A stretch of DNA of 64,000 nucleotides from Halomonas binhaiensis (GTDB taxonomy: Bacteria; Pseudomonadota; Gammaproteobacteria; Pseudomonadales; Halomonadaceae), in the NCBI RefSeq assembly GCF_008329985.2, contig NZ_CP038437.2, forward strand, positions 372,001 to 436,000. The letters are read 5' to 3'. Below the pieces are notes generated by a model that had not been told where the DNA came from, searched no databases, and saw nothing but the letters and a program-made list of their open reading frames with translations. The position numbers and the translations under genes were made by a program. Positions 60,107 through 63,200 of the stretch are shown piece by piece; within the stretch, counting starts at the first letter, position 1, and every line of letters begins with the position of its first letter.

Positions 60107-60159
60107 CTGTTGTCACTAGTTGCGACAGTCTCGATAGGCTGTGTAACTTGCAGAATTCC

Positions 60160-60192
60160 GACGACGAGCCCTTGTCTAGAGGGCTCGTCGTC
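60160..60192. repeat. Perfect 12-base hairpin between rplL and rpoB
   Basis: GACGACGAGCCC (60160-60171) pairs with GGGCTCGTCGTC (60181-60192), 9-base loop. No T-run. It lies in the segment (60107-60277) where the rpoB 5' end would be expected. Confidence 0.6.
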
Positions 60193-60253
60193 AGCGCCTG
60201 ACGGAGCAGCTTTGCTGGTCAATACGCTGCAGCTCGAATATGTGCCAGCTTGA

Positions 60254-63200
60254 TCCGTTTCTGCAGCTCTCCTGGCCTTCGACGTCAAGGAGTGCCAGCT
60301 GCGCGGCGTCACTTATTCCGCTCCCCTGCGTGTCAAGGTTCGCCTGATCATCTACGACAAAGAGTCGTCCAACAAGGCCATCAAGGACATCAAGGAGCAG
60401 GAAGTCTACATGGGGGAAATCCCCCTGATGACCGAAAACGGTACCTTTGTCGTCAATGGTACCGAACGTGTCATCGTGTCTCAGCTCCATCGTAGTCCGG
60501 GTGTGTTCTTCGACCACGACAAGGGCAAGAGCCACTCGTCCGGCAAGCTGTTGTACTCCGCTCGAGTGATTCCTTACCGCGGCTCATGGCTCGACTTCGA
60601 GTTCGATCCTAAGGACAACGTATTCGTACGTATTGACCGCCGCCGCAAGCTGCCTGCGACTATCTTGTTGCGTGCCCTGGGCATGAGTACCGAGGAAATT
60701 CTCAACGAATTCTTCGATACCAGCGTTTTCCACATCGAGAAGACCGGCTTCTCTGTGGATCTGGTGCCTTCGCGCCTGCGTGGTGAGACAGCGACCTTCG
60801 ACATCAAGGATGGCAATGGTGAAGTCATTGTCGAGGAAGGCCGTCGTATCACCCAGAAGCATATTCGCCAGCTGGAAAAAGCCGGTCTCGAGCGCCTCGA
60901 AGTGCCGATGGACTACCTGTTCGGCAAGACTCTCGGCAAGGACCAGATCAATGCCTCGACAGGCGAGCTGGTCTGCCCGTGTAACACTGAACTGACGCCG
61001 GAGCTGCTTGAGACGCTTGGCCAGGCTGGCATCACCACTATCGAGACGCTGTACACCAACGATCTCGACTGTGGGCCTTTCGTCTCCGACACTCTCAAGC
61101 TGGACACCACAGGTTCTCAGCTCGAGGCGTTGGTCGAGATCTATCGCATGATGCGCCCGGGCGAGCCTCCCACCAAGGAGGCCGCAGAAACTCTGTTCCA
61201 CAACTTGTTCTTCACTGAAGACCGCTACGACCTGTCCGGCGTTGGTCGCATGAAGTTCAACCGCCGTCTGCGTCGTGAATCTGACACTGGCTCTGGCGTG
61301 CTGGACAAGGGCGACATCCTCGATGTGCTGCGCGAGCTGATCAATATCCGTAACGGCTTTGGCGATGTCGATGACATCGACCACCTGGGCAACCGTCGTA
61401 TCCGTTGTGTCGGTGAGATGGCTGAGAACCAGTTCCGCGTGGGCCTGGTGCGTGTCGAGCGTGCCGTCAAGGAACGCCTGTCCATGGCCGAGAGTGAAGG
61501 CTTGATGCCGCAGGACCTGATCAATGCCAAGCCGGTTGCGGCGGCGGTCAAGGAGTTCTTTGGCTCATCCCAGCTGTCCCAGTTCATGGACCAGAACAAC
61601 CCGCTGTCCGAGGTGACGCACAAGCGCCGTGTATCGGCGCTCGGCCCGGGTGGTCTGACGCGTGAGCGCGCAGGCTTCGAGGTGCGTGACGTCCACGCCA
61701 CTCACTACGGTCGTCTGTGTCCGATCGAGACGCCGGAAGGTCCGAATATCGGTCTGATCAACTCTCTGGCAACGTATAGCCACACCAACAGCTATGGCTT
61801 CCTCGAGACGCCGTACCGCAAGGTCGTGGAAGGTGCAGTCACCGACGAAGTGGTTCACCTGTCGGCCATTGAGGAAGGCGATTTCATCATTGCCCAGGCG
61901 TCGGCAACCGTTAACGAGCAGAATCAGCTGGTCGATGATCTGGTACAGGTTCGTCACCGGGGTGAGACTACCTTCATGCGTCCTGAGCAGGTGACGTTGA
62001 TGGACGTGTCTCCGCGCCAGGTGGTGTCTGTCGCGGCCGCACTGATTCCGTTCCTTGAGCACGATGACGCCAACCGCGCCTTGATGGGTGCCAACATGCA
62101 GAAGCAGGCGGTGCCGACTCTGCGTGCTGACAAGCCTCTGGTGGGTACCGGCATGGAGCGTGTCGTGGCGCGTGACTCCGGCGTCTGTGCTGTGGCGCGT
62201 CGTGGTGGTGTGATCGATTCGGTCGATGCCAAGCGCATCGTGGTGCGTGTCAATGAGGACGAGATCATCGGCGGTGAAGCCGGCGTTGATATCTACAATC
62301 TGACCAAGTACCTGCGTTCTAACCAGAATACCTGCCAGAATCAGCGCCCGATCGTGCGTCCGGGAGATGCAGTCGCGCGAGGTGACATCCTGGCTGATGG
62401 CCCTTCCGTCGACATGGGAGACTTGGCGCTGGGCCAGAACATGCGTCTGGCGTTCATGCCGTGGAACGGTTTCAACTTCGAGGACTCCATCCTGCTGTCC
62501 GAGCGGGTGGTTCAGGAAGACCGTTTTACCACCATCCATATTCAGGAGCTGACCTGTGTGTCTCGCGACACCAAGTTGGGGCCGGAAGAAATCACAGCTG
62601 ATATCCCCAATGTCGGTGAGTCGGCTCTGGGTAAACTGGATGAGGCTGGTGTTGTCTATATTGGTGCCGAAGTCGGTCCTGGCGATATTCTGGTAGGTAA
62701 GGTCACTCCGAAGGGCGAGACCCAACTGACGCCGGAAGAGAAGCTGCTGCGGGCAATCTTTGGTGAGAAGGCCTCTGACGTCAAGGATACCTCCTTGCGT
62801 GCTCCGACGGGCATGAAGGGTACTGTCATTGATGTCCAGGTCTTCACCCGCGATGGCGTCGAGAAAGATTCGCGTGCACTGGCCATTGAGCAAATGCAGC
62901 TCGATGAAGTGCGCAAGGACCTTCAGGAAACCTACCGCATTGCAGAAGACGCTACTTTCGAGCGCCTCAAGCGGACGCTTTCTGGCCAGCCGGTCAATGG
63001 TGGTCCGAGGCTGACGAAGGGTGATGTCCTGTCCGACGACTACCTTGAGGAACTGCCGCGTCAGCAGTGGTTCAAGCTGCGTATGCAGGACGAAGGGTTG
63101 AACGAGCTGCTGGCTCAGTCCGATGAGCAGCTGGAAAGCCGTCGCAAGGAAATGGATGAGCGTTTCGAAGACAAGAAACGCAAGCTCACCCAGGGTGATG

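Follow-up and report, generated by a model that had tools for sequence, protein, structure and literature searches.

The RpoB N terminus missing from this Halomonas-type genome was very probably lost through a fault of assembly or consensus calling in the deposited sequence, as judged by alignment with relatives; the organism itself most likely has an ordinary rplL-leader-rpoB junction in its chromosome. The deposited letters do lack the N terminus, but this gap almost certainly does not exist in the organism. At the junction, a skip of native sequence and a nearly pure burst of insertions lie beside an otherwise flawless essential gene, a combination that indicates an error of assembly or consensus. 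Loss of the start codon and the first 83 usable codons is very unlikely to have happened in life, given that the gene is essential, that only one copy was found, and that its remaining codons are free of indels and under strong selection.

Results

The rpoB open reading frame in the window

The window, i.e., the whole stretch of 64,000 nucleotides that was analyzed, spans positions 372001 to 436000 of a genome (G000) that consists of a single contig of 4,895,269 bp, is rated 100% complete, and carries one copy of rpoB. The closest RpoB proteins among named records belong to Halomonas, Chromohalobacter, Onishia, and Vreelandella (very near records were possibly excluded from this set). The nearest relative, G090, served as the reference for base-by-base alignment, and the features discussed below are collected in Table 1.

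An earlier, sequence-only reading of this DNA had noted that homology to RpoB begins abruptly at the equivalent of E. coli F80, that an in-frame stop precedes it, and that rplL and the downstream part of RpoB are both flawless. The alignments bear out each of these points. In-frame homology starts with F84 by the genus count, which we take to be F80 in E. coli RpoB numbering, and the residue just 5′ of it, A83, is native as well. The stop in the rpoB frame is a TGA located inside the stretch that we refer to as the scar. The rpoB frame contains no ATG, GTG, or TTG between this TGA and the ATG at 60410, which is the first in-frame start codon after the stop, and initiation at this ATG would cost 127 residues. 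The open frame amounts to 1284 codons here. Among 24 genus relatives, 23 have 1364 to 1365 codons, and in the remaining one, G002, the frame is truncated by the contig. The beta subunit of RNA polymerase is essential and requires its N-terminal region.

Table 1. Features at the rplL-rpoB junction (window positions; a dot marks a feature without strand)
Feature	Position	Strand	Remark
rplL (L7/L12), intact	59661..60032	+	ends normally at 60032
Upstream part of the normal rplL-rpoB intergenic leader	60033..60207	+	99% identity to G090 over 60032-60210
Terminator-like hairpin and T run, conserved in genus relatives	60073..60106	+	leader alignment
"Perfect hairpin," a leader hairpin conserved in relatives	60160..60192	+	arms 60160-60172/60180-60192
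Breakpoint	60207..60210	.	257 native bp absent relative to G090
Scar, native rpoB codons ~66 to 83 with inserted bases	60210..60277	+	alignment to G090
In-frame TGA within the scar	60251..60253	+	
Intact remainder of rpoB, beginning at F84 (E. coli F80) and continuing beyond the window	60278..64000	+	

From F84 to the stop codon, the gene and its G090 counterpart comprise 1,276 codons each, with no indels between them. The two differ at 178 codons, 170 of which are synonymous and 8 nonsynonymous, a pattern indicating that the remainder of rpoB is under strong selection and not the relaxed selection of a pseudogene.

The same N terminus was open and in frame in 138 of 139 rpoB loci from relatives, the exception (L064) being cut by a contig edge; 123 of these calls were made with a strict motif and 15 more with a looser motif. 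Eight of the 139 loci are repeat entries for genomes in the set, so that the different sources number about 131. When the genus was searched at the DNA level, 84 of 89 relatives gave a match, each in 2 or 3 pieces, whereas G000 itself matched in one; the 5 that gave no match all have a completeness below 90%. As would be expected of an artefact, the sequence at the junction is confined to this assembly and is not shared by close relatives.

Remains of the native rpoB start

A short shared GAGC leaves the exact position of the breakpoint ambiguous by a few bases. The 257 bp absent relative to G090 comprise the final 63 bp of the leader and the beginning of the gene, from its start codon through about codon 65. 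From the start of GACGGAGC to the TTC codon of F84, the distance is 320 bp in G090 versus 78 bp in the window.

The 68 bases of the scar, when aligned with G090 codons ~66 to 83, retain 53 of the 55 native bases in order. They differ from G090 by 14 to 15 inserted bases, 1 to 2 missing bases, and 0 to 1 substitutions, the exact numbers varying with the scoring of mismatches. The alignment score of 80.5 was reached by none of 500 mononucleotide shuffles and none of 500 dinucleotide shuffles (maxima, 54 and 59, respectively), nor by any of 2,991 random stretches of G090 (maximum, 58.5). These stretches came from 3,000 draws after 9 that overlapped the rpoB start had been set aside, and 6 of these 9 reached the score of the scar; in an earlier control in which such overlaps were kept, 2 of 1,000 random stretches did so. 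Alignments of the scar to nine more distant relatives were poorer, with 46 to 53 matches, 15 to 22 insertions, and 6 to 24 deletions, as expected because of divergence. The scar thus has the makeup of an artefact, namely, residual true sequence with indel-type noise and few substitutions.

These results refine what had been read from the sequence alone. The proposal that the N-terminal ~80 codons are lacking holds insofar as the gap exists in the sequence as given, but the codons are not wholly absent, since a frame-broken copy of the last of them persists in the scar. A faint LEYV in this stretch had been taken as a sign that the true end might persist in scrambled form, and the alignment shows that suspicion to have been well founded.

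The rplL-rpoB leader

The segment 60107 to 60277 had also been described as carrying a perfect hairpin and no readable RpoB N terminus. The hairpin exists; however, the sequence up to 60207 is normal leader, and the hairpin itself is conserved in relatives. A consensus structure for 28 leaders of the genus group comprised 61 pairs, of which 9 showed two-sided changes; 99.4% of cells were paired. These figures are biased in favor of the structure, since the alignment from which they were computed also served for its prediction, without a shuffle control. The 28 leaders place the region among conserved, structured rplL-rpoB intergenic regions. Searches against Rfam returned nothing above the gathering scores for window positions 56900 to 60700 and nothing above the gathering score around the full G090 leader.

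Across the genus, conserved hairpins succeed one another along the leader, and a block that hardly varies lies directly 5′ of the rpoB start codon. This pre-start block is absent from the window. Based on these sequence comparisons, the genus leader could be a candidate regulatory RNA element of the beta operon.

The idea of an engineered cassette was considered and rejected. Several common restriction sites were seen by eye in 60033 to 60277, and those in the leader lie in sequence common to G090.

Surroundings of rpoB

To set the scar in its context, we compared 254 kb including the window with G090 contig C26. Among the 185 G090 open reading frames (ORFs) in this survey, 152 were matched in full (over more than 97% of their length), 17 were matched partially, 6 had no match, and 10 fell under 75% identity. 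The fault in rpoB is local and the assembly is not generally poor, the surveyed surroundings being mostly clean. Nine of the 17 partial ORFs were aligned at the DNA level, and 2 of them were scar-like, rpoB and a dctM-like gene. The other 7 showed differences at gene ends, spacers, inserted stretches, or single bases in possibly spurious ORFs, and small sequence errors may be among them. One partial ORF beyond these 9 (g3) runs off the compared stretch. A second survey paired positions 1 to 200000 of G000 with positions 1 to 200000 of G062, which are poorly syntenic; its 175 ORFs comprised 20 full matches, 6 partial matches, 122 without a match, and 27 under 70% identity, and none of the 6 partial ORFs had a piece in another frame nearby.

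The dctM-like gene, which we take to encode a TRAP-transporter large-subunit-like protein, occupies positions 2013 to 3338 on the minus strand, and its frame is broken near 3050 to 3075. Relative to G090, a net 52 bp is lost near 3057 to 3073, and some relatives have matches at this site that are longer by a similar amount (753 bp in G090 versus 701 bp, 740 versus 685 bp in G071, and 741 versus 686 bp in G047). A noisy short stretch adjoins the deletion; its score was reached by 25 of 1,000 shuffles. The site, whose tie to the kind of fault seen in rpoB is weak, is possibly a second assembly scar and possibly a natural deletion in a dispensable gene. Elsewhere in the window, the presumably glnE-like ORF at 30130 to 33174 contains a short repeat-rich stretch at about 32760 to 32840 that exceeds its G090 counterpart by about 30 bp, a length difference that looks like natural linker variation.

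Searches for a second or split rpoB

If the chromosome had truly undergone a deletion and rearrangement, as the sequence-only reading had allowed, the cells would have to live on an intact rpoB elsewhere, be it a second copy, a plasmid, or a mixed population. A plasmid or a minority allele could indeed be missing from a genome deposited as a single contig. Searches of the whole genome, which the same reading had suggested as a check, found neither a second rpoB nor the missing N-terminal codons: at the protein level, the sole other match to the missing RpoB N terminus had an E value of 0.27 and contained two stops, and at the DNA level, the matches to the missing rpoB segment were at most 28 bp long (best E value, 0.053). 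A search of plasmid records gave 42 matches, all at 60 to 80% identity. Moreover, a nonfunctional copy would not have stayed this intact, with 170 synonymous versus 8 nonsynonymous differences and no indel over 1,276 codons, unless the damage were very recent, and to our knowledge, genes do not decay by near-pure insertions. We consider an intact rpoB elsewhere very unlikely. A related scenario, in which the sequenced culture truly had an insertion-burst scar over the rpoB start, was caught just after local error-prone repair, and was kept alive by an intact copy that escaped notice or by a mixed population, strikes us as extremely improbable.

The long, intact downstream frame and its in-frame ATG might suggest a genuinely shortened or split RpoB, which either starts at an unusual downstream codon or receives its N-terminal 83 residues from another gene. 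No such form was seen in any of the 138 readable loci of relatives, and the genome searches located no separate N-terminal piece. In addition, no start codon is available in frame before the ATG at 60410, at the expense noted above, and native codons ~66 to 83 have been frame-broken by insertions, not cleanly removed. The probability of this arrangement, which the sequence-only reading had also listed, is negligible. A true local mutational burst by error-prone repair in the sequenced isolate or a subculture would suit the clean flanks, the local scar, and a second, weaker scar 57 kb away, but it deserves next to no credence, as it would break the only rpoB found and we know of no mutational process that gives 14 to 15 insertions with 0 to 1 substitutions.

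Discussion

An assembly or sequence error, one of the options that had been put forward from the sequence alone, is strongly supported by the insertion-rich native remains, the intact remainder of rpoB, and the normal junctions of relatives. Under this explanation, the consensus would skip about 257 bp at one spot, would then run through about 68 bp of the true gene in a low-quality form rich in insertions, and would become clean again at about codon 84. The fault would have arisen in sequencing or assembly, for example, from a single-molecule read that had escaped polishing or from a join that was badly closed. Noise made up almost entirely of insertions is the pattern of a local consensus error, as given by single-molecule reads prior to polishing. 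The insertion load here, about 26% over 55 bp, counts against this explanation, as it exceeds that of an average single-molecule raw read, so that any technical cause of the fault, whether a step or a technology, is a putative one.

These findings carry a warning about data quality, as a single-contig genome rated 100% complete can contain a local scar in an essential gene. rpoB serves as a marker in phylogenetics, and automated annotation would probably label this copy as a pseudogene or as truncated. Base-by-base alignment of apparent junk with a relative is a useful test before biology is invoked.

In E. coli, leaders of the rplL-rpoB type act in attenuation and RNA processing. A title by Barry et al. 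(1980), listed among the references of PMC5371410, concerns attenuation and processing in the E. coli rplJL-rpoBC unit. Neither rpoB nor rplL occurs as a term in the main text of PMC6131387. The leader described here resembles that of E. coli rplJL-rpoBC in lying between rplL and rpoB, in having a terminator-like hairpin with a T run, and in having a further strong hairpin before rpoB. It differs in that attenuation and RNase III cleavage are putative here and in that no Rfam match exceeded the gathering score.

Finished genomes are known to contain genes truncated by assembly or consensus errors of the indel type. A literature search at the level of abstracts found no study of a matching assembly error. 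The rpoB scar is like such errors in being local, frame-destroying, dominated by insertions, confined to one assembly, and situated in a gene that must be intact; it differs from them in that the insertions are combined with a skip of 257 bp and in that the surveyed surroundings are mostly clean.
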